NCBI GenBank assembly: GCA_903930515.1
Contig: CAIYYW010000333.1
Span: 1 to 16,389, forward strand
DNA length: 16,389 nucleotides
Direction: 5' to 3'
Source: an uncultured delta proteobacterium
GTDB lineage: Bacteria > RBG-13-61-14 > DRUE01
A model generated the notes under the pieces. It searched no databases. It saw only the letters and a program-made list of their open reading frames with translations, and was not told where the DNA came from. The translations under genes and the position numbers were made by a program. Shown here piece by piece: positions 535 through 16,389 of the stretch (within the stretch, counting starts at the first letter, position 1; every line of letters starts with the position of its first letter).

Positions 535-2802
535 TTAGTCCTGTGGGGTTGGTGGAGGCGGGCTTGATTCTTTGGGCTTGATCCATTCCGGTCCGGTGGC
601 GAGTTGGGACCCGGTCAGGAGCTGGAAGTAAACTGCGGTTGAGAAATCGGGGTTGCGATCCGGGTGTTCGGGATTGAGTCCTTCGGAGATTTTGAGGCTG
701 AGCATCCAGCATTTCTGCCGGGCGAGGTAATTGAACATCAGGCTCTGGGAGTCCAGCATTTGATATTCCACCGAGTAGTTGATCCGGTAGTTGATCCCGA
801 GGTTATCGGTTATGACCAGGTCGGTTCCCCCCATCCAGTTTTGAGCCGAATCCTGCTGATATGAATACCAGTAGGAGCGGAGTTCTTGGTCGCTGTAAAT
901 GTATCCGGCCAAAAAGCGGTCCTTCCTCCGGTCTTCCACCCAGGCGGTGGCGTAAGCGCGCCGCCACCGGCCTTTTTCAGGATTGAAGAACAGGTCGGTC
1001 TCTACCCCGAAATTTCTGGGGGATTGGACATACCCCTTGAATTCGGTATCAAGCCATCTCCGGTTTACCCAGCTATAAAACTGGTTTATTTCCATTTCGC
1101 TCAGGACCCTTGGGGAATCGGTTCCTTTGGCGATTTTTTTCTGGAACAGCAGGCTGTCCAGTTTCAGACCGACGATTCCGTTTTCGCGGCTGTTGGTGAG
1201 CCTCTGCAGGAAGGGATCGTCCGGGTTCTCGGTCGGTCCCTGGTAAAGGACGACCAGGCCTGGCTCAAGGAGATTGCGGTATTTGTTGCCCTCGGTTTTA
1301 TCCTGGTTGAAAATCCGCTCCATTGCCAGACTGAGGTCCGCTCCGGCAACCGGCCGGCCCAGGACCACTGTTTCCGGGTCGGCCTCGGAATAATAAGGAG
1401 AGAAGGCGCCGACCTTATAGCCGGCAAAAGAGAATACCCGGAGGCCCGGTGCCAGGTATGGGGCAAAGGTCAGGCGCGGGAACAGGTCTCCCTGGACCGC
1501 TCTCCCGAATTCGCTCTGCTCGTGCCAGTAGTCCTCGGCCATTCCTCGGAGGTCAAACCCGATCGGGCCGTAGATGGGTAGGTTGAACAGTTGATACGAT
1601 ACCGCGGGCAATTGCTGGATCACCATCTGGTCCTGGTCCGGCCGGAACTCCGGGATTTCCCGGAGGTCCCATCCGGCAATGTCCTCCGCCCATTTCAATT
1701 CGCCGCTCAGGCTGGAATAGGGCAGGGATTGGGAGGCCACGATTTTGCTGTCAAGTTCGCGGGCGGAACGCGGGGACAATTCCTGGGGGAAATCCCGGAT
1801 GTATTCATTGTCGCTGACCATACGGAGGTCCTCTCTCAGCCATCCGGAACCCCAACTGGATTCTCCTTGATACGACCCGCTCCATCTCCATTGATGTTCT
1901 TTGCTGTCCTCAATCGCGTATCCTTCCAGGTCCCCGGCGGAGATGGGGCCGAGGTTGTGTCGGAATTCCGCTCCGGCCATCAACCCCCGCTCCGAATACC
2001 AGGTGGGATATACGGTCAGGTCCGCGCTCGGGCCCAGCGCCAGGTAATAGGGGATTCCGGCGTAATACCCGGTGCGGCTGGAGTATCCGAACTCCGGGGG
2101 CAGCAGCCCGCTTTTTCTCTGATCGGAGATCGGCACTTCCCAATAAGGGAGGTAAAATATTTTCGCGCCCCGGATCAGGATGCGGGCGGAATGTAGCTTG
2201 GCCGTGCTTTGGGTGTCGGCGTTGATTTCCTTGGCCTCAAGCCCCCAGTCGGGCTTTTGTCCTCCCGAGCACTGGCAACTGGTCAGGCTGCCGTTCTTGA
2301 ACAGGTATTGGGTCTCGTTGATCTTTTCCAGACGCTCGCCGCTGATGGTGATCTGCCCCTCGCCCGGTTTCGGCGGTTTCTGGCCGGTTACGCTGACCGG
2401 TTCCTGCTGAGTGGGCAGGGTCATTTTTCCGTTGATCATCCAGCCGGCATCGGTGTCCAAATTCAACTCGGCGTTCTCGGCCACGATCACTTCCCGTTCC
2501 CGGTCCTGATCGTTGCGGACCACTTCCACCGACTTGAGCGCGCGCACCACATTGGTTTTGAGATCAATCTGCATTTCCGGTCCGTAAATGGTGAAGGGCG
2601 GTTTTACGATCACCACATTTCCGGTCAGGGTGAGGATTTGGTTCTCGCGGTCATAGGTCAATTCCCGGGCGGTGGCCTGGACCGGGATTTGCGCGGGAGC
2701 GGCCGGTTCCTTTTTAGCGTCCTGCGCGAAAAGCGGAAGCGCGAGCAACAGATAGAGCAAGATCAGGAAGCCGCTCGGGCTTGGTTTTACGGCGCTCAGC
2801 AT
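535..2802 (-). CDS. lptD: LPS-assembly protein LptD (OstA/Imp)
   Basis: This is the outer-membrane barrel that receives LPS from the periplasmic Lpt bridge and inserts it into the outer leaflet. The 755 residues start with a signal peptide (hydrophobic stretch about 11-26, probable cut after LFA at 26). An OstA/LptA-like jellyroll follows at about 40-160, with the family pattern of a free-standing strand near LTYDRENQILTLTGNV. The LptD-specific segment at about 217-275 contains YLPYWEVPISDQRKSG, followed by GLLPPEFGYSS and tyrosine-rich barrel strands. The C-terminus ends in a proline-rich tail after barrel strands near 685-735. Cys176 and Cys178 in the N-terminal domain and Cys698 near the C-terminus could form the interdomain disulfide known from the E. 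coli protein. It starts 8 nt after the phosphodiesterase stop, with only a G-rich Shine-Dalgarno stretch, so it is the last gene of the signalling operon. The length is normal for the family. Confidence 0.93.
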   Translation of the reverse strand: MLSAVKPSPSGFLILLYLLLALPLFAQDAKKEPAAPAQIPVQATARELTYDRENQILTLTGNVVIVKPPFTIYGPEMQIDLKTNVVRALKSVEVVRNDQDREREVIVAENAELNLDTDAGWMINGKMTLPTQQEPVSVTGQKPPKPGEGQITISGERLEKINETQYLFKNGSLTSCQCSGGQKPDWGLEAKEINADTQSTAKLHSARILIRGAKIFYLPYWEVPISDQRKSGLLPPEFGYSSRTGYYAGIPYYLALGPSADLTVYPTWYSERGLMAGAEFRHNLGPISAGDLEGYAIEDSKEHQWRWSGSYQGESSWGSGWLREDLRMVSDNEYIRDFPQELSPRSARELDSKIVASQSLPYSSLSGELKWAEDIAGWDLREIPEFRPDQDQMVIQQLPAVSYQLFNLPIYGPIGFDLRGMAEDYWHEQSEFGRAVQGDLFPRLTFAPYLAPGLRVFSFAGYKVGAFSPYYSEADPETVVLGRPVAGADLSLAMERIFNQDKTEGNKYRNLLEPGLVVLYQGPTENPDDPFLQRLTNSRENGIVGLKLDSLLFQKKIAKGTDSPRVLSEMEINQFYSWVNRRWLDTEFKGYVQSPRNFGVETDLFFNPEKGRWRRAYATAWVEDRRKDRFLAGYIYSDQELRSYWYSYQQDSAQNWMGGTDLVITDNLGINYRINYSVEYQMLDSQSLMFNYLARQKCWMLSLKISEGLNPEHPDRNPDFSTAVYFQLLTGSQLATGPEWIKPKESSPPPPTPQD

Positions 2803-2810
2803 CCCCGGGC

Positions 2811-3572
2811 CTAGAGCTCAATAATTTCGCCCTGCTCCAGCGGAATGATCCGGGGCTTGGTTTTGGCCAGTTCGCGTTTCAGTTCGGAGAGGTAATTGGG
2901 CTTGAGATGGAAAGCGCGCGCGAGATATCCTTGCCGGTCTATTTTTTCCAACTCGGCCTCGGCCATTTTGGGGGTCAAATGGCCGGTAAGCTCGGCCAGT
3001 TTCTGCATCCGGTTCGGAAAGCTTACTTCAATCACCACCAGGCGCAGGTTGTTGATCTTGCCGGCTTCTTTCCAGATCCGCTCGGTCACGCTGCTGTCTC
3101 CGGTATAAATAAACGAGTTTTTGCCGTCGCTGACGATAAAGGCGCACGAAGGGATCGAATGATTTACCGGGATGGCCCGGATACTCAGTCCCTCAATTTT
3201 GGTCTCCTCGCCGATCTTGATCGGATGATAGGCCAGCACCGGATTTTCCGGGGTGGGTATCCGGGAAAAATCCGGCCAGATCCGGTTGTTCAAAATATGT
3301 TTCTGGATGATCTGGAGGCTCTTGGCCAGACCAACGATAAGGATCGGCTCTTTTCTTTTCCCGAAGACATTATCCGCGATAAACCCCAAATCCTGGATAT
3401 GGTCCAGGTGGGTGTGGCTGATCAGGATGGCATTCACCTTGACCTGATCGGTCAGACTCAAGCCGGAAGTGAGAGCGCCTGCATCCAAGGCGACCCGGTT
3501 GTTGACCAGCAGGCAAGAACTCCTCATCCCCGGGCTTTCGCCCCCATACGCGCCTAAAACCTTGATCTCCAT
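2811..3572 (-). CDS. MBL-fold class II cyclic-nucleotide phosphodiesterase
   Basis: This probably hydrolyses 3',5'-cAMP (or cGMP) to the 5'-nucleotide. The 253 residues form one metallo-beta-lactamase domain. The metal ligands are visible: HTHLDH (His53, His55, Asp57, His58), His138 in NHS, Asp159 in YTGDSS, His198 in GHLTP and His222 in FHLKP. The block IEVSFPN...GHLTP at about 181-201 resembles the class II phosphodiesterase family (yeast PDE1, Vibrio CpdP) more than RNase Z or lactonases. The protein is somewhat shorter than yeast PDE1. There is no signal peptide, so the enzyme should be cytoplasmic, unlike periplasmic CpdP. It starts 12 nt after the Crp-like gene, behind an AAAGGG ribosome-binding site. 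Its position downstream of an adenylate cyclase and cNMP-binding proteins strongly supports a cAMP-removing role. A different MBL hydrolase remains possible. Confidence 0.78.
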   Translation of the reverse strand: MEIKVLGAYGGESPGMRSSCLLVNNRVALDAGALTSGLSLTDQVKVNAILISHTHLDHIQDLGFIADNVFGKRKEPILIVGLAKSLQIIQKHILNNRIWPDFSRIPTPENPVLAYHPIKIGEETKIEGLSIRAIPVNHSIPSCAFIVSDGKNSFIYTGDSSVTERIWKEAGKINNLRLVVIEVSFPNRMQKLAELTGHLTPKMAEAELEKIDRQGYLARAFHLKPNYLSELKRELAKTKPRIIPLEQGEIIEL

Positions 3573-3584
3573 TTAAACCCTTTC

Positions 3585-4238
3585 TTACTGAATATTTTCA
3601 AACTGCTCTTTCATACTTAAGTATTCCAGGTACTTGCGCAAGCGGTTGGTGTCCGCCATAATCAGCCCGTCCGGAACCACCTTCAATAGTTTCCCTTTTT
3701 CCAGACGGCCGATGATCTCCCGGGCCTGCTCCGGCTCCAGGCCGGTCTTGCTGGCCAAGTCCTCAACCGACATATTTATCTTGATCCCGTCCTCAACCTG
3801 CTTGCCGGAAGAGTCCGCGGCCCGGGTCAGGGTGTGGACCACCCTTGAGTTGGCGTCCTTGTAAAGCAGGCTCTCAATCTGGTCATCGGCTTCCTGGAGC
3901 CGCTGGGAAAGCTTCTTGATCATCCGGACCGCGATCTCAATGTTGTTCTTGAGCATCAGTTCAAAGGTCTTGGGATCGATCACCAGCATCTTGCATTCCT
4001 CGACCGTGGTCGCGGTGGCGCTGCGGGGCTTGTTGTTCAGGATCGCCATCTCTCCGAAGAATTCTCCGGCCGGAAGCGTGGCCAGCACCTGCTCTTCCCC
4101 GCGGACATTTTTGGAAATCCTGATCCTGCCGGATTGGATCACATACATCTCCCGGCCGGTTTCGCCTTCCTTGAACAGCACGGTTCCGGGCGGAAATACC
4201 CGTCCCAATTTTTGAAAAAGAACATCCTCGTTACCCAT
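3585..4238 (-). CDS. Crp/Fnr-type cyclic-nucleotide-binding transcription regulator
   Basis: This likely senses cAMP and binds DNA. Residues 10-95 form a cNMP-binding beta-roll. The phosphate-binding cassette (58-78) reads GEFFGEMAIL...KPRSATAT, with Glu63, Arg72 and Ser73 matching the E. coli CRP residues that hold the ribose and phosphate of cAMP. A long dimerisation helix follows at about 98-126. The C-terminal part (about 127-190) has a winged helix: MSVEDLASKTGLEPEQARE is the HTH, followed by IIGRLEKGKLLKV. A short helical extension (195-217) lies beyond it. No Fnr-type cysteine cluster is present. The start has a strong AAGGAGG 9 nt upstream, inside the end of the preceding gene, and the two genes are 2 nt apart. 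Target sites are unknown, and I found no clear TGTGA-N6-TCACA site in the window. Confidence 0.87.
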   Translation of the reverse strand: MGNEDVLFQKLGRVFPPGTVLFKEGETGREMYVIQSGRIRISKNVRGEEQVLATLPAGEFFGEMAILNNKPRSATATTVEECKMLVIDPKTFELMLKNNIEIAVRMIKKLSQRLQEADDQIESLLYKDANSRVVHTLTRAADSSGKQVEDGIKINMSVEDLASKTGLEPEQAREIIGRLEKGKLLKVVPDGLIMADTNRLRKYLEYLSMKEQFENIQ

Positions 4239-4240
4239 TT

Positions 4241-5974
4241 TTAAACGCCTCCTTTTTGTCCAGTTTGTTCTCCTAGTTTATTTTGATTATCCAGGCTTGT
4301 CAAAAGAGCCAATCCCGATTCCGGGGCCGGGCTCCCTTTCGGACGATGCTGGGTGTAAATCCGGCTCTGGCGATAAGCCTTAAAAAAGGCTTCCACCGCC
4401 TCGGGCGACAGTTGGTTCCCGCGGTTCTGCCACAACTCCGTCAGCGCTTTTTCCTCGTCCAGCGCCGCCCGGTAGGGCCGGTCGGAGGTCATCGCGTCCC
4501 AGGTGTCGGCCACGGCGATGATCCTGGCGATCAGGGGTATCTGTTCTCCGGTCAGTTTGAGCGGGTATCCCCTTCCGTCCAGCCGCTCGTGATGATACCT
4601 GGTTCCGGGGATCACCTGCTCCAGGTTCTTGATGTGGCTTAAAATCTCGTAGCCCTGCTCCGGATGCGTGCGCATCTGGGCGAACTCCTCATCATCCAGC
4701 TTGCCCGGCTTGCGCAAAACCCGGTCCTCAATCCCGATCTTGCCGATGTCGTGAAGGATCGCGGACAGCTCCAGTTTCTCCCGCTCCTCCGGCGTCAGCC
4801 CCAGTTCGCGGCCGATCGCGACGGAGAAATCCCGGACCCGCTTGGTATGACCGCCGGTGTAGATGTCCCTTTTTTCAATGGCCAGGGCCAGGGCTTCCGC
4901 GGTCTGGAAAAAGGTCACCCGCTGTTCCTGGTAGAGGAAGGCGTTTTCCAGCGCGATCGCCACCTGGTCTGCCAGGCTGGTCATCAGCTTCAAGTCTTCG
5001 CGGTCAAAGACTTTTCCGGCGAGCTTGTTGATGGCCTGGAGCACGCCGATGATTTTGCCCTTGCTCTGCACCGGCACGGTCACCATATTGCGGGTGTGGA
5101 ACTTGGATTTCCGGTCAACCTTGCTCGCCCATCTCGGGTCCTTTTCCGTGTCCGCGATCAAGGCGCACTCCCCGGTCTGAGCCACCCACCCGGCAACGCC
5201 TTCTCCGATCTTGAGCCGGATTTCCTTCACCTTGTCCGCCACCTCGCTCAAGACCACCTCGAAATAAAGCTCTCCCCGTTCCGCGTCAATCAGGTAGAGC
5301 GACCCGGCCTGGCAATCCAACAGGCGCACCACCGCCTCCATCGCCCGGGTGCGCACGGTCTTGGGCTCCAGGCTGGAATTGAGGATCCGGTTGATCTCCA
5401 AAAGCATCCCGGTCTGTTCCACTTCCTCCCGGAGAGTCTTCTCCAACCGCGCGTTCTCCGCGGCCAGGGTCAGTTCCGGCAGAAGGGTCTGGAACGCTCC
5501 CAGGTCTTTCCTTGACAGCTCCCGTTTTTTTGAAGCCAAAACACAGATGAGCAGGATCTGATTTCTCTTGCCGAAAGACGCCGCGGCGATGGATTTCGGC
5601 TGGAACTGAAAAGCCCGGGAGAAAAATTTCCGGGCCGGTAAATTCCGGCCGCCCAAGTTGAGGATCAACTCGCCCGGTTTTTTTTGCAAGCCGGAAAGGC
5701 CCGCGGCATCAGGACTGAATTTGGCGACCCATCCGGATTTTTTCAGGCTGGACCGGAGCAGGGTAAATTCTTTCCCTTTAGCCCGGCGCCAGATCAGGAA
5801 ACCGTCCAGCTTCAGGATCCGGCGCGCTTGCTCGAGCATTTCCAGCAGGTTTTTTTGAGAGGATTGCGGCCGGTCCTGGAAGGAGCCTGGTTTTTGCCGT
5901 AATTTCCTTGCCGGATTTCCGGGCGATGCTCTTCGGGCTTTGGGCTTCGGTTTTTTCTTTCCGGTTTTATTCAT
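4241..5974 (-). CDS. GAF domain / HD-GYP phosphodiesterase
   Basis: This is predicted to degrade cyclic di-GMP or a related cyclic dinucleotide. It has 577 residues. A very basic N-terminus (1-30) is followed by a divergent GAF-like region (about 45-170), a short coiled coil (about 170-190) and a clear GAF domain (about 190-348). The HD-GYP domain (about 360-540) shows HDIGKIG (His408-Asp409), HPEQGYEIL, HHERLDGRGYP (461-471) and the helix AVADTWDAMTSDRPYR, so the metal site and GYP motif are intact. GAF domains in such proteins bind small ligands, including cyclic nucleotides, so direct control by cAMP is possible but not shown. Its ATG overlaps the previous stop by 4 nt (ATGA), which indicates translational coupling. 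There is no membrane segment. Confidence 0.9.
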   Translation of the reverse strand: MNKTGKKKPKPKARRASPGNPARKLRQKPGSFQDRPQSSQKNLLEMLEQARRILKLDGFLIWRRAKGKEFTLLRSSLKKSGWVAKFSPDAAGLSGLQKKPGELILNLGGRNLPARKFFSRAFQFQPKSIAAASFGKRNQILLICVLASKKRELSRKDLGAFQTLLPELTLAAENARLEKTLREEVEQTGMLLEINRILNSSLEPKTVRTRAMEAVVRLLDCQAGSLYLIDAERGELYFEVVLSEVADKVKEIRLKIGEGVAGWVAQTGECALIADTEKDPRWASKVDRKSKFHTRNMVTVPVQSKGKIIGVLQAINKLAGKVFDREDLKLMTSLADQVAIALENAFLYQEQRVTFFQTAEALALAIEKRDIYTGGHTKRVRDFSVAIGRELGLTPEEREKLELSAILHDIGKIGIEDRVLRKPGKLDDEEFAQMRTHPEQGYEILSHIKNLEQVIPGTRYHHERLDGRGYPLKLTGEQIPLIARIIAVADTWDAMTSDRPYRAALDEEKALTELWQNRGNQLSPEAVEAFFKAYRQSRIYTQHRPKGSPAPESGLALLTSLDNQNKLGEQTGQKGGV

Positions 5975-7374
5975 CCCTGGTCTCCTATAATCTTTTTGAT
6001 GGTTGCCTCCACCCGCTTTTCAATGGTCTGTTCCAGGAGCGAGATCATCTCGGGGTGGCTCTTTGCAAGCTGGTCAAACCCGGCCCGGTCCAGGACCAGC
6101 AGTTCGGTCGGGGTCAGCGCGGTGATGGTCGCGGTCCGGGGCTTGTTCTTGATCAGGCTGACTTCTCCGAAAAATTCCCCGACGCTGAGCCGTGCCAGGG
6201 TCAATCTCCGGCGGTCCTTGGGGTCGAGGGTGGTCACTTCCACCCGGCCGCTCTTGATCAAAAACATTGAACCCCCGGGGTCCCCTTCCCGGACCACGGT
6301 CTCTCCGGGCGCGGCTTCTTTCAACTCTAATTTTTCAATCAACTCCTGCCGGTCCGCGGGGGGAAGGATGCTGGTGAGCGGGCTTAATGCCAAAAGGTTG
6401 TCCAAAACCCGGTCCTTGTAAAACCGGAGCATCGCCTCTTTCACCTGGGGATACTTTTCCAGGATCGCGTCCATATCGGTTTTGGAAATCTCCAACAACT
6501 CCAGGTCGGTTTTGGCCTTGACGGTGGCCTGCCTCTTGCCGCCGGTGAAATATGCGAACTCTCCGAAGAAGTCCCCGGATTTGAGGTTTGCCACCTGCTT
6601 TTCCGGTCCTTCGGGGCTTTTCTTGGTCACTTCCACTTCGCCCTCGGCGATGATGAAGATGGAATCCCCCTCATCCTCTTCCCGGCAGACCCTGAGCCCG
6701 GCCGGGATTTTGACCGAGCGCAGTCTTTGATAAACCTCGGCGAATTCCTCCGGCGCCAAGTCCGAGAATAGCAGGAAATCCAGGCTGGATTTTTCCGCTT
6801 CCGATTCTTCTATTACTTCCGGCTCCGAGACTTCTCCTTCAGCCGGGGATTGCGCTTCCGGCTCTTCAGGAATTTCAATCGGACCCCTCTCCTTCAAGGC
6901 TTCTTTGGACTCGGCCGTTTCCGAATCCCATTCCGGCTCAGGCGCGGGCTTGGCCGGGAAAGGCGCTGGTCTAGGCGCCGCTGGTTGGGGCTCGGCCGGC
7001 TTGAGTTCGGAAGCGAGCATTTTTTTCGGCTCAATCTTTCCGATGATGGGTCCGCGCTTTTTGGCCAGCATCTGCTCTATTTCTTTATTGATCTCCTGGT
7101 CATCCGGGAGAAGCTCCTGGAGAATTTTTCCGACCGCAATGGCCTGGACGAGAAAGCCGGTGTCGAGGTATCCCTTCATCGCCTCGCGGTAGGCCTTCAC
7201 TCCCTGATCCTCCTGGTCCAGCTTGAAATAAATTTCAGCCATTTTCTGAAGGGTCTTGGCGTCCGCTCCCCCGGCCTGCCGGATCTGCCCGTAAATCTCG
7301 ATCGCCTTGTCCAGCTTGTTCTTGCCGCGGAATTTCTCCGCCTCGCTCTTCAGTTTTTTGACATCAACCTTCAT
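5971..7374 (-). CDS. TPR protein with two cyclic-nucleotide-binding domains
   Basis: This is probably a cytoplasmic cAMP receptor or scaffold. It has 467 residues. Helical TPR-like repeats (about 5-105) resemble AEKFRGKNKLDKAIEIYGQI. A Pro/Ala/Glu-rich disordered linker (about 118-195) follows, then cNMP-binding domain 1 (about 200-310) and domain 2 (about 328-440), and a short C-terminal helix. Domain 2 has a good phosphate-binding cassette, GEFFGEVSLIKNKPRTATIT (Glu404, Arg413, Thr414). Domain 1 keeps Glu272 and Arg281 but has Gln282 where Ser or Thr is usual, so its ligand affinity or specificity may differ. No enzymatic or DNA-binding domain is seen. The layout recalls the tandem cNMP domains of protein kinase A regulatory subunits, but that is only an analogy. 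It begins 12 nt after the cyclase stop behind GAGGCGG and overlaps the next gene by ATGA. Confidence 0.88.
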   Translation of the reverse strand: MKVDVKKLKSEAEKFRGKNKLDKAIEIYGQIRQAGGADAKTLQKMAEIYFKLDQEDQGVKAYREAMKGYLDTGFLVQAIAVGKILQELLPDDQEINKEIEQMLAKKRGPIIGKIEPKKMLASELKPAEPQPAAPRPAPFPAKPAPEPEWDSETAESKEALKERGPIEIPEEPEAQSPAEGEVSEPEVIEESEAEKSSLDFLLFSDLAPEEFAEVYQRLRSVKIPAGLRVCREEDEGDSIFIIAEGEVEVTKKSPEGPEKQVANLKSGDFFGEFAYFTGGKRQATVKAKTDLELLEISKTDMDAILEKYPQVKEAMLRFYKDRVLDNLLALSPLTSILPPADRQELIEKLELKEAAPGETVVREGDPGGSMFLIKSGRVEVTTLDPKDRRRLTLARLSVGEFFGEVSLIKNKPRTATITALTPTELLVLDRAGFDQLAKSHPEMISLLEQTIEKRVEATIKKIIGDQG

Positions 7375-7386
7375 AATTGCCGCCTC

Positions 7387-9876
7387 TTATTTTTTAGTCA
7401 GCCGGAACACGCCGTCCCAATCCGGGGGAGGCGGGTTTTCCAGATAGGCCTGGGAGCGATCGAGATATACCTTGCTCGGGGAATCCGCCGGGTCCAGTTC
7501 CAGGGCTTTCTTGAAGAGCGAGACCGCTTGGCCGAAATCTTTCGCCCGAAATAGCTCCAAAGCTTTGGCATAGATTTCCACCACTTCTTTTTTCTTCGGA
7601 TCCAATTCCCCCTTCTTGGCCAGCAACTGATAAACCCGGACCGGCTTCTGCTTCCCCACCACGGCCAGCAGGTCCAGCTCGCGGACTTCAACCGAGTCCT
7701 TGGCCTCCTGGTAAGTGGACTCGCTGATCATCAGGTTGGTTCCATAGGCCTTGTTGGCCCCTTCCAATCTGCTGGCCAAATTGACCTCGTCCCCGATCAC
7801 GGTGTAATCCATCCGTCGGGCCGACCCCATATTCCCGACCTTGACCAGACCGGTATTAAGCCCGATCCGGCAATTGATCGCCGGCCATCCCTCCGCGGCC
7901 CATTCCTGGTTCAGCTCCTTAAGCCTCCGGTGCATTTCCAGCGAACTCAGGCAGGCGATCCGGGCGTGATCCGGATAGTCAAACGGCGCCCCGAAGATCG
8001 CCATCACCGCGTCTCCGATATATTTGTCCACCGTGCCCCGGTTCTTGAGCACGATGTCGCTCATCTCGGTCAGGTACTGGTTCAGCAGGTGGACCAGCTT
8101 TTCGGTCGGGAGCTTTTCGCTGATGGAGGTGAAGCCGGCGATGTCCGAGAAGAACACGGTCACCCGTTTGTCTTCCCCGCCCAGCCTGAGTTTATCCGGG
8201 TGGGAGCACAGTTCTTCAATCACCTCCTGCGACAAATATAGGCTGAAGGTATTGCGGATGAACCTCTTTTCCTTTTCCTCCATCGTGTAGTGATAGAGGG
8301 TGATCCCCATATAGATCAGGACCCATGACAAGGTCGGATAGAGCAGGGTCAGGGAATAATGGAGTTGGTTGAACAGATAATAATTGAACCAACTGTATCC
8401 GACCACCAGGATCGCGATCAGGCCGGCGCTGTAGAGCGGACGGATCTTGGGGTAAATCCAACTGAGCAGTATCCCGAGCGCCGCGATCCCCAGGATGTCA
8501 AACGCCCACATCCAGTTCGGCCGGTAGAGTTCGCGGTTATGGAGCGCGTTGTCAATGATATTGGCGTGGCTCATCAGCCCCGGCATGGTCCCGAACGGGG
8601 TGTTCCAGACATCATAAATCCCGACCGCAGTGGGTCCGACCAGAACGATCTTGTCCTTGAAGGCCTGCTCCGGGTTGAATTTTCCGCTTTTCCTCTGCTC
8701 GGCAAAATCATTGATCACATCGTAAAAGCTGTAAAGCTGGAACCGGTTCAGATTGCCCTGATAGTTGATCAGCATCTTGCCGTCTTCATTCACCCGGACC
8801 CGGTAATCGCCGACCCGGACGCTTTCCACCCCGGACTCGTTGACCACCACCACCGGGTCCTGGTTGCCGGCGTAGATCCGGAGCGCTTCCAAAGCCAGGC
8901 TGGGGAATAAAATATAATCCTCCGGTTTTTTTAAATCCTCCAGGAAAGGCCATCCCGCGATCAGGGCCGCGCTGCGGAGCACTCCGTCCGAATCCGCGAC
9001 CGAAGAGAAATATCCGGTGCCGCTGATGTTCCTGGCGAAAATAGGCAGGTTGACCTGGAACCCGAAGATGGGGGTGACGCCCCCGGCTCTCAGGGGCGGG
9101 TTGCTTTTTGACGCGGCCAGGGTACCGGCGTTGGAACCGTATTTATACTTGACGATCTTGATCGCGTATGGCTTAAGTTGCTCCAGGCGGGAAAGGTTTT
9201 CCGCTGCGCTCACCTGTTTGGCCTCGGTGTCGGTCTGATAAAAAATCCAACCCAGGATCTCATTATCAGCGGCAGCCAGGGCGTCCGCCAGGGCCTGATC
9301 GGTGTTGGCCTGTTGTTCCAGGTCATTGACATAAGCCAGGAACGCGTCCCGCTCTTTCCCTTCCATCCCGAGCAGGGCGTCCTTGACCTTCCGGACCTGC
9401 TCGGCTTCCGCGGCCTGGCCTTTGTCCTGGGACAATCTCTTCAACTCCTGGTCCAAAAGCCGGACTGCCTCCCGGTTTTTTTGGGCAAGGCCTTGGCTGC
9501 CTTGGGTCAGATAGTATTCCTTCAGCTTTTCCAGGAATTGGAGGTTGAGGTTCTGGTCCGGCTCGGAAAAAATCACATCCAGCGCAACCATCTTGGGATG
9601 GTATTTATTAATCGCCTTGAAGAATTGCGCCCAATAAATGCGCGGCCAGGGCCATCTCCCCAGCTTGGTCACGCTCTTCTCGTCCATCGCCACCAGCACG
9701 ATCTCCGGCGCGCCCGTTTGCTCTCCCCGGATCCGGAACCGCAGGTCATACGCCTTAGACTCCAGGGCCTCCAGGAACATCGGCCGCTGGTAGATCACAA
9801 TCACCATCAAGATGGTCAGGTAGATGCCGATCCGGAGGGAATTAAGACGGAACAGAAAATTGAGCAGTTTCTTCAT
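7387..9876 (-). CDS. CHASE2-domain class III adenylate cyclase
   Basis: This is a membrane sensor that makes cAMP. I take the ATG at 9876 (829 residues). An in-frame TTG at 9894 is unlikely because it lies beside the -10 box. A signal-anchor helix (about 13-29) leads to an extracytoplasmic CHASE2 domain (about 35-450: FEALESKAYDLRFR-like start, LDVIFSEPD, VLVGPTAVGIYD, NIIDNAL). Three membrane helices follow (about 458-473, 482-500, 508-527). The cyclase domain (about 565-750) has both metal aspartates (Asp578 in FFSDIAGFT, Asp622 in KYIGDAVMAIFG), the adenine-selecting Lys618 and Thr692, and the transition-state Asn699 and Arg703. The Lys plus Thr pair favours ATP over GTP. A TPR-like tail (about 765-812) closes the protein. 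About 80 charged helical residues (111-190) appear inserted in CHASE2. It is the first gene of the signalling operon. Confidence 0.93.
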   Translation of the reverse strand: MKKLLNFLFRLNSLRIGIYLTILMVIVIYQRPMFLEALESKAYDLRFRIRGEQTGAPEIVLVAMDEKSVTKLGRWPWPRIYWAQFFKAINKYHPKMVALDVIFSEPDQNLNLQFLEKLKEYYLTQGSQGLAQKNREAVRLLDQELKRLSQDKGQAAEAEQVRKVKDALLGMEGKERDAFLAYVNDLEQQANTDQALADALAAADNEILGWIFYQTDTEAKQVSAAENLSRLEQLKPYAIKIVKYKYGSNAGTLAASKSNPPLRAGGVTPIFGFQVNLPIFARNISGTGYFSSVADSDGVLRSAALIAGWPFLEDLKKPEDYILFPSLALEALRIYAGNQDPVVVVNESGVESVRVGDYRVRVNEDGKMLINYQGNLNRFQLYSFYDVINDFAEQRKSGKFNPEQAFKDKIVLVGPTAVGIYDVWNTPFGTMPGLMSHANIIDNALHNRELYRPNWMWAFDILGIAALGILLSWIYPKIRPLYSAGLIAILVVGYSWFNYYLFNQLHYSLTLLYPTLSWVLIYMGITLYHYTMEEKEKRFIRNTFSLYLSQEVIEELCSHPDKLRLGGEDKRVTVFFSDIAGFTSISEKLPTEKLVHLLNQYLTEMSDIVLKNRGTVDKYIGDAVMAIFGAPFDYPDHARIACLSSLEMHRRLKELNQEWAAEGWPAINCRIGLNTGLVKVGNMGSARRMDYTVIGDEVNLASRLEGANKAYGTNLMISESTYQEAKDSVEVRELDLLAVVGKQKPVRVYQLLAKKGELDPKKKEVVEIYAKALELFRAKDFGQAVSLFKKALELDPADSPSKVYLDRSQAYLENPPPPDWDGVFRLTKK

Positions 9877-9885
9877 AAGACGGTA

Positions 9886-9914
9886 ATTATACAATTATTA
9901 GGGGGGATTGGCAA
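9886..9914 (-). promoter_or_regulatory. Promoter of the cyclase operon, possibly leaderless
   Basis: On the minus strand, TTGCCA (plus 9909-9914) is followed by a 17-nt spacer and a perfect TATAAT (plus 9886-9891). The -35 box has one mismatch to TTGACA. Only 9 nt (9877-9885) separate the -10 box from the cyclase ATG, so transcription would start about 1-3 nt before the ATG. No Shine-Dalgarno sequence is visible there, which fits a leaderless or nearly leaderless mRNA. Confidence 0.65.
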
Positions 9915-9922
9915 ACTTTAGA

Positions 9923-9942
9923 GGGTGGGTTGGGGGTTGGGG
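9923..9942 (+). other. Potential G-quadruplex next to the cyclase promoter
   Basis: Four G-tracts of at least three (9923-9925, 9927-9929, 9932-9936, 9939-9942) are separated by 1-2 nt, the classic G4 pattern. They sit on the plus strand just upstream of the -35 box, with another G6 run at 9901-9906 inside the promoter spacer. The plus strand is the template for the minus-strand operon. The same stretch can be read as heptameric repeats (ttggggg, ttgggga). Confidence 0.5.
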
Positions 9943-9962
9943 ATTAGCAAAAGCCTATCCCC
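9939..9962 (-). terminator. Stem-loop after acpP
   Basis: Two 10-nt arms (9939-9948 and 9953-9962) pair with two internal mismatches around an AAAA (plus) loop. The hairpin lies 12 nt beyond the acpP stop and before the cyclase promoter, so it could end the fab transcript. It lacks a U-run and is followed on the minus strand by a C-rich tract, so it is not a standard intrinsic terminator. Confidence 0.35.
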
Positions 9963-9974
9963 TGCAATTCCCAA

Positions 9975-10223
9975 TTATTCCGGGATTTCCTTGCCCACCC
10001 GCTGCTCAACATAATCAATGGTGTTTTGGATCGTGCGCATTTTTTCCAGGTCCTCGTCCGGGACTTCCAGGTTGAACTCATCCTCCATAATCAGCACCAG
10101 CTCCCACAGGTCCATTGAGCTGATCCCCAGGTCCTCAATAAAATTAGCCTCCGGCACCACCTTTTCTTTATCAACCTCCAGGTGCTCCAGAATCAACCCG
10201 ATCACCCGATCCTTAACCAGCAT
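9975..10223 (-). CDS. acpP: Acyl carrier protein
   Basis: This small acidic four-helix protein (82 residues) carries the growing acyl chain on 4'-phosphopantetheine during fatty-acid synthesis. The attachment serine is Ser36 in DLGISSMDLWELVL, aligned with the usual DLGADSLDTVEL. The near-universal DSL triplet is here SSM, an uncommon variant that keeps the serine. Helix II with the following acidic MEDEF matches the recognition helix used by fatty-acid enzymes. GGAGG lies 10 nt before the ATG. It is the last gene of the yceD-rpmF-fabD-fabG-acpP group, 95 nt after fabG. It could serve a specialised pathway, but its place after fabD and fabG favours the housekeeping ACP. Confidence 0.9.
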   Translation of the reverse strand: MLVKDRVIGLILEHLEVDKEKVVPEANFIEDLGISSMDLWELVLIMEDEFNLEVPDEDLEKMRTIQNTIDYVEQRVGKEIPE

Positions 10224-10257
10224 TTTATCTTAACCTCCGATTTACCTTTTTGGGAAA

Positions 10258-10296
10258 GCTCGCGGCGCAGACCCCCTGGTCTCTATGTCTGCGAGC
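10258..10296 (-). other. Stem-loop in the fabG-acpP gap
   Basis: The 95-nt gap holds a strong hairpin. Outer arms GCTCGC (10258-10263) and GCGAGC (10291-10296) enclose AGACC-CCCT-GGTCT (10269-10282). An alternative pairing uses GCAGAC (10267-10272) with GTCTGC (10287-10292). There is no T-run, so this is more likely an mRNA processing or stabilising structure ahead of acpP than a terminator. Confidence 0.45.
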
Positions 10297-10318
10297 CTAT
10301 TTATCATTTTATCAGGTT

Positions 10319-11071
10319 TCATCCTAAAAACAATCCTCCATTGATATGGATCACCTGTCCGGTGATATAGCCCGATCCCGGCAGGCATAAAAATCCGGCC
10401 AGTTCCGCCACTTCCTCGGGCCGTCCCGGACGTCCGAGCGGGATCGCCTTCACAATCTCCCGGCGCCTCCCCTCCGGGATTTTTTCGGTCATCGCCGTCT
10501 CAATCAATCCCGGCGCGAGCGCGTTCACCGTTACCCGGTAGGGCGCGAGTTCCAATGCCAGCGACCTGGTCAGCCCGATCAGGCCGGCCTTGCTCGCCGC
10601 ATAATTGGTCTGGCCGACCTGTCCAAGATATGCCACCACCGAGCTTAAGCTGATGATCCGGCCGTAATGCTTCTTCACCATCACCCGGCTCGCGGCCCGG
10701 GCGCAATTGAAAGACCCGGTCAAATTCACCGCGATCACTTCCATCCAGTCCTCAAACTTCATCCTCGGAAGTATTTGGTCCCGGGTGATCCCCGCGTTAT
10801 TGACCAAAATTTCCAGGCCGCCCAATTCCTTCTCCAGCTTTTTCACTTCTTCCTGGACCTGGGCAAAATCGGTTACGGAAAAGCCGGAAAAAACCGCGCT
10901 CCCGCCCTTCGCCTCAATCAGATTGACCGTTTCCTTGCCTGCGGTCTCGACCAGATCGTTGACCGCGATGCTCGCCCCCAGGCTTGAGAGCTTGAAGGCG
11001 ATCTCTCTTCCGATCCCCTGGCCGGCGCCGGTGATCAGGGCCCGCTGCCCGGTTAGTGGTTTGGGATCCAT
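10319..11071 (-). CDS. fabG: 3-oxoacyl-ACP reductase FabG
   Basis: This NADPH-dependent enzyme reduces 3-oxoacyl-ACP to 3-hydroxyacyl-ACP in each elongation cycle. The 250 residues form a classical short-chain dehydrogenase: nucleotide motif TGAGQGIG (14-21), NNAG (91-94), Asn115, catalytic Ser144, and Tyr157-x3-Lys161 in YAASK. The C-terminal SGYITGQVIHINGG is typical of FabG. The frame stays open upstream to 11188, but I chose the ATG at 11071. It gives the normal family length, lies 1 nt after the fabD stop (TGATATG), and the upstream extension only overlaps fabD. It is translated with fabD and followed by acpP, so the role is in housekeeping fatty-acid synthesis. Confidence 0.94.
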   Translation of the reverse strand: MDPKPLTGQRALITGAGQGIGREIAFKLSSLGASIAVNDLVETAGKETVNLIEAKGGSAVFSGFSVTDFAQVQEEVKKLEKELGGLEILVNNAGITRDQILPRMKFEDWMEVIAVNLTGSFNCARAASRVMVKKHYGRIISLSSVVAYLGQVGQTNYAASKAGLIGLTRSLALELAPYRVTVNALAPGLIETAMTEKIPEGRRREIVKAIPLGRPGRPEEVAELAGFLCLPGSGYITGQVIHINGGLFLG

Positions 11072-11072
11072 A

Positions 11073-11999
11073 TCAGAGGATGCTCCTAAGCGACTGGAGG
11101 TCGGCGGTGGTTGAAAAATTAAACACCGGAATCTCCGGCGCGATTTTCTTGACCAACCCGGCCAGAACCCTGCCCGGGCCGATTTCAATAAAGGCCTCCG
11201 GTTTTTTTTCCGTCAATCCCGCGACGGATTCCGACCATCGCACCGGAGAAATCACCTGCCTGGTCAAAATACCCCGGGCCGCTTCCGGTCCCGGATACGG
11301 CTTGGCCTCCAGGTTGGAAATCACCGGGAACTTTAAGGGATGGAAACCGATTCCCGCCAGGAGACGATCCAGCCCTTCCGAAGCGGACCGCATCATCGGA
11401 GAATGGAACGCGCCGCTGACCTTGAGCCGGATTCCCCGGACCCGGCGCTCCTTTAACAGCTTCTGCGCCCGGATCAGGCCGGCATTGGTCCCGGAGATCA
11501 CCGCCTGTCCAGGCGCGTTTAAATTTGCCAAAACCAAAACCTCTCCGGCTCCGGCCTCTTGGCAAACCTTCTCAACCTCTTCCGGCTCCAATCCCAAAAC
11601 CGCGATCATCCCGGCCTCTCCGCCCTTCCCGGCCTCGGCCATCAACTCCCCGCGCTTGCGAGTCAGCCTCAGCCCGTCCGAAAAATCCAAAGCCCCGGCG
11701 CAAACCAGCGCGCTGTACTCGCCCAGGCTGTGGCCGGCGCCCGCGCACGGGACAAAATTGAACTCGCGCTCCAGGATTTTAAAACCGACATAGGAAATCA
11801 GCAGCAAACAGGGCTGGGCGTTCTCGGTCCGGGTCAACTCATCCTCCGGGCCTGCAAAGCATAGTTCCGGGAATTCCAAATCCAAGACCTCGCCCGCGGC
11901 TTGAAATATTTCCCGCGCCTGGGCGAAATCCTGAAACCACTCTTTCCCCATTCCCGGCGTTTGCGATCCCTGTCCGGGGAACAGCGCGACTATCCCCAT
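11073..11999 (-). CDS. fabD: Malonyl-CoA:ACP transacylase FabD
   Basis: This enzyme moves malonyl groups from CoA to ACP, supplying extender units. The 308 residues match the usual length. Motifs are GQGSQ (9-13), the nucleophile elbow GHSLGEYS with Ser91, Arg116 for the malonyl carboxylate, His199 in SGAFHSPMM completing the dyad, and the C-terminal EIGPGRVLAGL. AAGGAGAGGAG lies just before the ATG. It follows rpmF after 40 nt. Most genomes with this gene order place plsX and fabH between rpmF and fabD, but here there is no room for them. The stop is 1 nt from fabG. Confidence 0.95.
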   Translation of the reverse strand: MGIVALFPGQGSQTPGMGKEWFQDFAQAREIFQAAGEVLDLEFPELCFAGPEDELTRTENAQPCLLLISYVGFKILEREFNFVPCAGAGHSLGEYSALVCAGALDFSDGLRLTRKRGELMAEAGKGGEAGMIAVLGLEPEEVEKVCQEAGAGEVLVLANLNAPGQAVISGTNAGLIRAQKLLKERRVRGIRLKVSGAFHSPMMRSASEGLDRLLAGIGFHPLKFPVISNLEAKPYPGPEAARGILTRQVISPVRWSESVAGLTEKKPEAFIEIGPGRVLAGLVKKIAPEIPVFNFSTTADLQSLRSIL

Positions 12000-13645: not shown

Positions 13646-15103
13646 ATGAGCCGAAGGACCAGCAAAGTTTTTTGGGCGCTGATTTTGATTGCGGTCTGCG
13701 TTGCCGGGGGATACTGGCTGGGGAAGAGCAGCCAGGGCTTGCGCTTTCCCTGGCGACTGGGAACGCCGACACCTGCGGGGGGGAAGCCGGCCACGGTCTT
13801 GCCGCAGCAGGTGATCATCCCGAAGGGGATGGCGGAATTTGAGCAGCGGGTGATGCTGGCGGCGAACAAGGCTCTGCCGGCTGTGGTCAACATCAACACC
13901 GAGCGGCGGGTCATGGTTCAGGGGACATCCAATCCCTTTTTCTACACGCCTCCCCGGGAGCAGATTCAGAAGAGCCTGGGCTCGGGCGTGATTGTCACCC
14001 AGGACGGATACATCCTGACCAATAACCATGTGATTGAGGAAGCGGATGTGATTATGGTCTCGCTTGTGGACAAACGCGCGTTCAGCGCCAAGGTGGTGGG
14101 CTCGGACCCCAAAACCGACCTGGCTTTGCTCAAGATCGACACCACTGATCTTCCCACCCTCCCGCTCGGCGATTCCGGCAAGCTGGAGGTGGGACAGTTC
14201 GTGCTCGCGGTCGGGGACCCCTTCGGGCTTTCCGGGACCGTTACCATGGGGATTGTCAGCGCCAAGGGCCGCGCCAACTTAAAGATCGCGGATTACGAGG
14301 ATTTCATCCAGACCGACGCCTCAATCAATCCGGGCAACTCTGGGGGCGCCCTGGTGAATTTGGACGGAGAGTTGATCGGGATCAACACCGTGATCTTTTC
14401 CCAGACCGGGGGTTCAGTCGGAGTCGGCTTCGCCATCCCCTCCAATATGGCCAAGGCCGTGATGTATAATTTGATTGAATACGGAAGGGTGGTGCGCGGC
14501 TGGCTCGGGGTCGGAATCCAGGACCTGAACCCGCAATCCAGAAAAATCCTCAATTACCAGGGCGAGGGGGCGCTGGTGGGGTTGGTGATGGAAAAGAGTC
14601 CCGCGCAAAAGGCCGGAATCAAAACCGGGGATATTATCAGCAGCTATCACGGCCAGCCCATCAACAGCGGCAGCGAATTAAAGAACCTGGTCGGCGATAC
14701 TCATCCGGGAGATAAGGTTGAGTTCAAGGTGATCCGGAATGGCCAGGAGCTGACCCTGAGCGCGAAGATAGAGGAGATGAAAGAGGAAGGGATGGTTCAA
14801 CCGGGAGTGGCGATCGTTCCCACCCTGGGCTTGCAGGTGGAAGATTTGAATGATACTTTGCGCGAACAATTCGGCATTCCCCGCGAACTGCAGGGCGTGG
14901 TCATTACCGCGGTGGATGAGAGAAGCCGGGCGGAAGAGGCCGGGATCCAGATCGGCGATGTGGTTTTGCGGGTGAACCAAACCATTGTCAAGAGCAGCCA
15001 GGATTTCTGGAAAACCGTGGAGCCGGCTGGAAAGGATCAAATTATGCTCTGGATCTGGAGGCTGTCCCAGACCGTGGTCGTGGGCATCCCGCCGGAACAA
15101 TAA
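13646..15103 (+). CDS. htrA: HtrA/Deg-family serine protease with two PDZ domains
   Basis: This ATP-independent protease/chaperone removes damaged envelope proteins. It has 485 residues. A short basic start and one hydrophobic helix (about 9-25, ending GGYWLG) make an uncleaved anchor or signal sequence, placing the rest in the periplasm. The trypsin-like domain (about 65-275) has the full triad: His128 in TNNHVI, Asp158 in KTDLALL and Ser232 in NPGNSGGAL. PDZ1 (about 284-378) contains GWLGVGIQDL and AGIKTGDII. PDZ2 (about 395-480) contains LGLQVEDL and AGIQIGDVV. Two PDZ domains match DegP/DegQ-like proteases rather than DegS. GGAGG lies 10 nt before the ATG. It appears monocistronic: over 200 nt follow before the next gene. 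Which E. coli Deg protein it corresponds to cannot be said. Confidence 0.94.
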   Translation: MSRRTSKVFWALILIAVCVAGGYWLGKSSQGLRFPWRLGTPTPAGGKPATVLPQQVIIPKGMAEFEQRVMLAANKALPAVVNINTERRVMVQGTSNPFFYTPPREQIQKSLGSGVIVTQDGYILTNNHVIEEADVIMVSLVDKRAFSAKVVGSDPKTDLALLKIDTTDLPTLPLGDSGKLEVGQFVLAVGDPFGLSGTVTMGIVSAKGRANLKIADYEDFIQTDASINPGNSGGALVNLDGELIGINTVIFSQTGGSVGVGFAIPSNMAKAVMYNLIEYGRVVRGWLGVGIQDLNPQSRKILNYQGEGALVGLVMEKSPAQKAGIKTGDIISSYHGQPINSGSELKNLVGDTHPGDKVEFKVIRNGQELTLSAKIEEMKEEGMVQPGVAIVPTLGLQVEDLNDTLREQFGIPRELQGVVITAVDERSRAEEAGIQIGDVVLRVNQTIVKSSQDFWKTVEPAGKDQIMLWIWRLSQTVVVGIPPEQ

Positions 15104-15325: not shown

Positions 15326-16389
15326 ATGGCAAAATGCGCGAAATGCGGGGAAGAGGTTCAGACCGGGAAGAAGTTCTGCCCGGAATGCGGGGAATCTACG
15401 ACCCGCCGCGACCCCGGCACGGTGGAACTGCACAAGACCGAGGACCGGTTTGAGGAAGCGATAAATTCGACCGGGAGATATAAGGTCAAGAAGCTGCTGG
15501 GCCGCGGAGGGATGGGTGTGGTCTATCACGCCCTGGACAAGGAGCTGGGGATTGATGTCGCGATCAAGAGCCTGCCCCCCGAGCTGTCCGCAGATGTCCG
15601 GAGTCTGAACCAGCTTCGGCAGGAAGCCAAACTGAGTATGCAACTCACTCATCACGGGATCGTCCGTCTCTACGACCTAAAGGAGGCCCAGGACTCAAGG
15701 CTGTTGGTGATGGAATACATCCCCGGCTTTAACCTCTCCGATTACCTGTTCCTGCGCGAGAAACTTTCGGAGGAAGAGGCCTGGGAGATTTTAAAGCCGG
15801 TGGCCGACGCGCTGGATTACGCTCATTCCCGGAAGGTGATCCATCGCGACATCAAGCCGAGCAACATCCTGTTCAAGACCACCAAAACCGTCCAGGAAAT
15901 CGCCGAGTCCTATCAGAAGGAAAAGAAATTCCCCGCCGACCTGGAGATCAAGGTGGCCGACTTCGGCATCGCCCGGACCGTGAGCGATTCCATGAGCCGT
16001 CTGAGCAATATGCCGGTTTCCGGAACCCTGAGCTATATGAGTTCGGAACAGATCCGCGGCAAGCGCCAGACCCACTTTACCGATGTTTATTCCCTGGCCG
16101 TGGTCGCCTACGAACTGCTCTGCGGCCGGCCTCCCTTTTACCAGGGCGAGATCACCTACCAGATCATCAACGAATCCACGGAGCCGATCTCCGGGATCAA
16201 GCCCGAATATATGCAGGCCATCCTCAAAGGGTTGTCCAAAAACCCCGAAGACCGGCCCCAGACCTGCTCGGAATTCATCCAACTCCCGCAGCAACTTGCC
16301 CAAAGCAAAGACCACTGGGAATTGGTCCCGGCCCAGCCCTCTACTCCGGCGTCAACCCCGGCCGCGCCCGCGGCCGAGCCGAGCCTTTC
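15326..16389 (+). CDS. Zinc-ribbon Ser/Thr protein kinase (Hanks type), 3' end outside window
   Basis: The frame is open to the right edge (354 codons visible). A short N-terminal zinc ribbon has Cys4, Cys7, Cys18 and Cys21 (CAKCGEE...FCPECGE). The kinase domain (about 52-325) has the glycine loop GRGGMGVVY (59-67), Lys81 in VAIKS, Glu100 in helix C, HRDIKPSN (173-180), DFG (212-214) and ARTV. The activation-segment block SGTLSYMSSEQIRG (232-245) replaces the usual GTPxYMSPEQ, and CGRPPF and NPEDRPQT follow, so it should be active. About 20 extra residues lie between the catalytic loop and DFG (184-206). A Pro/Ala/Thr/Ser-rich linker begins near 336, so a further sensor or membrane domain is expected past the window. 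AAAGG lies 8 nt before the ATG. Targets are unknown. Confidence 0.9.
   Translation, partial: MAKCAKCGEEVQTGKKFCPECGESTTRRDPGTVELHKTEDRFEEAINSTGRYKVKKLLGRGGMGVVYHALDKELGIDVAIKSLPPELSADVRSLNQLRQEAKLSMQLTHHGIVRLYDLKEAQDSRLLVMEYIPGFNLSDYLFLREKLSEEEAWEILKPVADALDYAHSRKVIHRDIKPSNILFKTTKTVQEIAESYQKEKKFPADLEIKVADFGIARTVSDSMSRLSNMPVSGTLSYMSSEQIRGKRQTHFTDVYSLAVVAYELLCGRPPFYQGEITYQIINESTEPISGIKPEYMQAILKGLSKNPEDRPQTCSEFIQLPQQLAQSKDHWELVPAQPSTPASTPAAPAAEPSL

Follow-up and report, generated by a model that had tools for sequence, protein, structure and literature searches.

A candidate cAMP signalling operon with an HD-GYP enzyme adjoins lptD in an uncultured delta proteobacterium

Results

Gene content of the locus

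The analysed DNA (the window; 16,389 nucleotides of the genome here called G000) carries six minus-strand genes between positions 535 and 9876, separated in reading order by gaps of 12, -4, 2, 12 and 8 nt. The ORF coordinates agree with the six reading frames and the spacing of -4 to 12 nt given in a first-pass annotation of the sequence, and its domain assignments were reproduced by Pfam (CHASE2 and Guanylate_cyc; two cNMP_binding domains; GAF and HD_5; cNMP_binding and HTH_Crp_2; PDEase_II/Lactamase_B_2; LptD). The five junctions of the operon were scanned for terminator-like sites on the coding strand and none was seen, including at the junction dividing lptD from the other five genes, in keeping with the grouping of all six in one operon by that annotation.

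The first gene (7387..9876, minus strand) encodes a membrane cyclase composed of a CHASE2 sensor (Pfam, 8e-60), a class III nucleotide cyclase domain of the IIIb type (Guanylate_cyc, 8e-26) and a C-terminal TPR part. Its closest solved relative is CyaB of Pseudomonas aeruginosa (3r5g, 1e-46), and alignment with CyaB revealed that the two metal-binding Asp residues, the purine-site Lys/Thr pair and the transition-state Asn and Arg are kept (FFSDIAGFT, DKYIGDAVM and DYTVIGDEVNLASRLE). Under the residue code established for class III cyclases, this set of residues points to a IIIb-type adenylate cyclase.

The second gene (5971..7374, minus strand) encodes a protein with two cyclic-nucleotide-binding (cNMP_binding) domains and neither a helix-turn-helix nor a kinase domain, hereafter the dual-CNB protein. 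It resembles the regulatory subunits of PKA, with FFGE and the Arg kept in both phosphate-binding cassettes. Its description as a TPR-dual cNMP protein holds for the two cNMP domains, while the TPR part stays below the Pfam thresholds in the window copy and is detected in a relative (locus L164). The third gene (4241..5974, minus strand) codes for a candidate cyclic-dinucleotide phosphodiesterase with GAF and HD_5 domains. It matches PmGH of Persephonella marina (4mcw) at 4e-60 and keeps the HD and HHExxDGxGYP motifs; the Glu that binds the third metal in PmGH (Glu185 position) is replaced by Tyr, so that the trinuclear site of PmGH, a feature of one HD-GYP subtype only, is not matched in this alignment, and a binuclear metal site is possible. 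The enzyme further has a long extra N-terminal region, which is absent from the 426-aa copy of the congener G001.

A Crp-type transcription factor is encoded by the fourth gene (3585..4238, minus strand; cNMP_binding and HTH_Crp_2); the Arg-Ser pair reported earlier for its phosphate-binding cassette is present in GEMAILNNKPRSATA, from residue 62 on. The fifth gene (2811..3572, minus strand) encodes a putative cyclic-nucleotide phosphodiesterase (PDE) of the class II type with a metallo-beta-lactamase (MBL) fold, scoring 61 bits against PDEase_II (cut-off 23.7). Yeast PDE1 is its closest solved relative: HLDH and QKHxxNxxIWPD are common to both, the HxHLDH motif is present as SHTHLDH, and the segment QKHILNNRIWPD matches yeast PDE1. 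Lactamase_B_2 scores as high as PDEase_II, and RNase Z-like NCBIfam matches lie far below their cut-off. A single-sequence AlphaFold model of low confidence (pLDDT 52) was placed by fold search in the MBL superfamily, where class II PDE, RNase Z, PhnP and Apyc1 were not separated. The sixth gene is lptD (535..2802, minus strand), which codes for the LPS-assembly outer-membrane protein with LptD_N, LptD and LptD_2 domains.

Start of the operon and flanking genes

A sigma70-type promoter (TTGCCA-17-TATAAT, 9886..9914, minus strand) precedes the cyclase gene, matching the consensus in 11 of 12 bases and representing the best match in the window. Its -10 box ends 9 nt ahead of the cyclase ATG; TTGCCA and TATAAT are found at the same place directly upstream of the cyclase ATG in G001, where this distance is 7 nt. 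Since the promoter boxes are kept in G001, transcription probably starts at the cyclase itself, with little or no leader. The interval from 9876 to 9914 marks a near-leaderless start, the transcript having no room for a Shine-Dalgarno site. An RNA element or attenuator ahead of the cyclase was considered and rejected, as there was no Rfam match and the hairpin between the upstream acyl carrier protein gene and the cyclase does not outperform shuffled sequences (z -0.63) and is not kept in G001. A search upstream of the operon for palindromes of the E. coli CRP type, the one kind of site that it covered, gave nothing above chance; a site of this kind would be expected if the Crp factor regulated its own operon.

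Upstream on the same strand lie an acyl carrier protein-like (ACP) gene (9975..10223, by translation), 98 nt from the cyclase and preceding it in G001 too, fabG (10319..11071, by domain search), likewise kept in G001, and fabD (11073..11999, TIGR00128 above cut-off). These three genes may form a unit separate from the operon. On the plus strand, the end of an RCC1-like repeat protein, recognised by eye (2-469), is convergent with lptD, and a zinc-ribbon Ser/Thr protein kinase gene, also identified by eye, occupies 15326-16387; the latter is adjoined by a gene for a DegP-type protease (13646-15103).

Conservation in the phylum

The phylum of the window is represented by three genomes in the collection, namely G000, its congener G001 and G002 of another family. 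One contig of G001 carries fabD-fabG-ACP-cyclase-dualCNB-HDGYP-Crp-PDE, the last five spaced by 9, -4, 1 and 9 nt, and ends inside the PDE gene. A second contig (C13) opens with the end of the PDE (LEQGEVIEL*), followed at once by lptD, and therefore all six genes stand in order in G001. The encoded proteins are 54-84% identical to those of the window, and because the arrangement is conserved at such divergence, it is not due to chance. The tight order of source, readers and sink described in the first-pass annotation is thus conserved in G001, and the synteny of all six genes, which it proposed to look for in relatives, holds there in full, whereas in G002 the row is split between a contig with cyclase-dualCNB-HDGYP and one with Crp-PDE-lptD. 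The trio cyclase-dualCNB-HDGYP also occurs in a further genome, G016.

Pairing of the phosphodiesterase with Crp-type factors

Among 386 genomes sampled across the domain, 60 hold a relative of the PDE at 1e-40. The surroundings of the PDE loci were gene-called, and families were marked with HMMs built from clusters. In 14 of 58 PDE loci the gene immediately ahead of the PDE encodes a Crp-type factor (12 of them, in 10 families, by the strict count, plus L101 and L111, in which it was missed by the gene caller). Crp matches are concentrated at position -1, which has 14, while the remaining positions within seven genes together have 6. GAF-HD-GYP stands directly ahead of the PDE in five families, and seven have a cyclase no more than 1 kb away from the PDE. 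Cyclase, Crp and PDE occur together in three other families, and with the cyaD1 locus of Sinorhizobium meliloti (PMC4222275) these clusters make the initial statement that bacteria usually scatter such parts too strong. The PDE tree is star-like, with Crp, HD-GYP and cyclase contexts spread over its deep branches. PDE and Crp are also fused or joined in paralogues of G000, G001 and G002, and their pairing and fusion recur across phyla. Fusion proteins paralogous to the window pair are encoded at L037 (4711-6264; 517 aa, in G000) and L069 (8354-9643).

These data bear on the identity of the messenger, which might not be (or not only be) 3',5'-cAMP: cGMP could be the product of the cyclase, or 2',3'-cyclic nucleotides or further phosphodiesters could be the substrates of the PDE, in which case the parts would not form one circuit. 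A precedent comes from S. meliloti, whose cyaD1 locus encodes Clr (a Crp factor) and SpdA (PDE-like) besides a CHASE2 cyclase: no activity of SpdA on 3',5'-cAMP could be detected (PMC4222275); caution is therefore due in assigning a function to the window PDE, since PDE adjacency can mislead. In addition, enzymes of the MBL fold process a wide range of phosphodiesters, the fold search did not decide among them, and the NCBIfam matches, though far below cut-off, are RNase Z-like. The cyclase, however, carries at its purine site the Lys/Thr pair of class IIIb adenylate cyclases, the PDE shares a class II-type signature with yeast PDE1, and the adjacency and fusion of PDE and Crp recur. We therefore regard a different messenger as unlikely and retain cAMP as the preferred one.

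An older neighbourhood of lptD

lptD is present as a single copy in G000, G001 and G002, and its junction with the PDE measures 8 nt in the window and is overlapping in G002. Beyond the phylum, accD follows the PDE directly in about 17 loci (18 counted, with L142 at only 41 bits), folC is found in 15 PDE loci, and lptD lies within 3 kb of the PDE in 9-10 loci of six families (10 with L111). In several families trpBA is located upstream, giving the order trpB-trpA-[Crp or HD-GYP]-PDE-accD-folC-lptD, from which some genes are missing in some loci. At L110, L111, L116, L126 and L130 the PDE, with Crp or GAF-HD-GYP, sits inside such a cluster. Given this neighbourhood across families, the PDE-lptD adjacency of the window is probably what is left of an older and longer cluster, and a cyclic-nucleotide PDE is a long-standing member of a set of lipid and envelope genes. 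The specific proposal that a cAMP operon recruited lptD is weakened by this. The link to lptD drawn in the first-pass annotation stands as regards the tight junction in the window, in G001 (across the contig break) and in G002, but the link is older than the operon. Within an open-access library, no paper on trpBA-PDE-accD-folC-lptD clusters was found, nor one tying lol/bam/lpxD clusters to cyclic nucleotide-binding.

lptD may accordingly be an inherited neighbour: the trio of cyclase, dual-CNB and HD-GYP genes would have come to lie beside Crp-PDE-lptD, a remnant of the old trpBA-(Crp/HD-GYP)-PDE-accD-folC-lptD cluster, and the cAMP module would regulate another process, such as surface behaviour or the carbon/energy state. 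This explanation has a considerable chance of being correct, if one short of even. It draws on the recurrence of accD, folC and lptD beside the PDE, on the two halves lying on separate contigs in G002 and on the fact that housekeeping clusters can hold their order without a regulatory reason. On the other hand, the tight junctions make co-expression likely whatever the origin of the arrangement, and dual-CNB genes have been placed independently in clusters of lolC, lolD, bamA and lpxD.

Dual-CNB genes in envelope clusters

Relatives of the dual-CNB protein were detected in 20 of the 386 genomes. In the phylum of the window and in G016 the gene is flanked by those for the cyclase and HD-GYP; family f22 has it immediately ahead of HD-GYP; in G002 the cyclase is flanked by two dual-CNB genes (L034, 4993-10754). 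A different setting is seen in three lineages, G173 (L164), G234 (L167) and Deltaproteobacterium SM23_61 (L001), where the gene separates lolC from lolD in clusters of the order lysS-lolC-dualCNB-lolD-bamA-skp-lpxD; the positions concerned are 7866-11202 (L164), 8491-11573 (L167) and 3490-6686 (L001). Two of the lolC-lolD copies are the nearest kin of the window protein outside its own phylum, a grouping that is weakly supported. The placement between lolC and lolD is an independent pointer to an envelope connection, and the clusters supply testable partners for dual-CNB proteins.

Discussion

Taken together, the six genes are read here as a cyclic-nucleotide signalling operon with a cAMP source, readers and a sink, an HD-GYP arm and read-through into lptD, a reading to which we give slightly better than even chances. 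The HD-GYP enzyme would add a c-di-GMP-type side arm to a cAMP module that is probably tied to envelope biogenesis. The sequence data show which genes are present and in what order, their catalytic and binding motifs, their conservation and the lack of terminator-like sites between them, whereas we infer the substrates and activities of the enzymes, a single transcript, feedback, and envelope biogenesis as the regulated process. In the proposed mechanism, CHASE2 would sense a periplasmic or envelope condition and set the cytoplasmic class III cyclase, yielding cAMP. The messenger would be read by Crp, leading to a change in transcription, and by the dual-CNB protein, which would use its TPR part to alter a partner protein. 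Removal of cAMP by the class II-type PDE would reset the signal, while GAF-HD-GYP would lower a cyclic dinucleotide and couple the two messengers. From a strong near-leaderless promoter ahead of the cyclase, transcription would probably read through into lptD, so that the module and LPS export would be made together.

The circuit was initially called self-contained, which did not hold up: G000 encodes four PF00211 cyclases in all, three besides that of the operon, a fused PDE-Crp paralogue and several other CNB proteins, and cAMP from the operon can therefore be shared unless it is localised. Also weighing against the proposed operon are its division in G002, the failure to find a CRP-type palindrome above chance, and an lptD neighbourhood that is older than the full operon and may be passive.

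Extending the envelope connection beyond the phylum, the PDE (with Crp or HD-GYP) wired into accD-folC-lptD and the dual-CNB protein wired into lolCD-bamA-lpxD might represent a so far undescribed cyclic-nucleotide checkpoint, widespread in little-studied diderm phyla, that acts on outer-membrane and lipid synthesis and through which envelope assembly would be set by cAMP and c-di-GMP. We consider this wider proposal doubtful. The known controls of LPS and lipoprotein export are envelope stress systems and proteolysis. If cAMP did control outer-membrane assembly in these lineages, a second messenger would have a direct role in both export processes.

Among known systems, Pycsar anti-phage defence (PycC with PycTIR or PycTM) likewise combines a cyclase with CNB proteins, and the cyclase and CNB domains of the window cross-match the PADLOC models of PycC and PycTIR. 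These matches are confined to the generic cyclase and CNB regions, the operon holds no TIR or transmembrane killing effector, and its order is conserved among housekeeping genes; a Pycsar-like system was rejected as highly improbable.

The cyaD1-clr-spdA locus and the NsrA-Cya-Clr pathway of S. meliloti resemble the operon in that a CHASE2 cyclase, a Crp-type factor and a PDE-like gene occur at one locus, and signals reach the cyclase by way of an outer-membrane beta-barrel protein (PMC4222275, PMC13001267, PMC7529298). This protein is NsrA, a receptor working with CHASE2 cyclases (PMC7529298). Unlike the window PDE, SpdA is a class III metallophosphoesterase acting on 2',3'-cAMP, and a dual-CNB protein, HD-GYP and lptD are not reported at the S. 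meliloti locus (PMC4222275, PMC13001267, PMC7529298).

At the level of single proteins, the window PDE shares the PDEase_II domain, the HLDH motif and the IWPD segment with class II PDEs (yeast PDE1, PF02112; bacterial CpdP) and is a candidate member of this class by its sequence, but it is smaller (253 aa) and adjoins Crp and lptD. The cyclase shares its class IIIb domain with CyaB and differs from it in the CHASE2 sensor and in the TPR part following the cyclase domain. Finally, the HD-GYP enzyme follows PmGH in the order of GAF and HD-GYP and in the HD and HHExxDGxGYP motifs, and is set apart from it by the Tyr at the third-metal position, the long N-terminal extension and its location in a putative cAMP operon.
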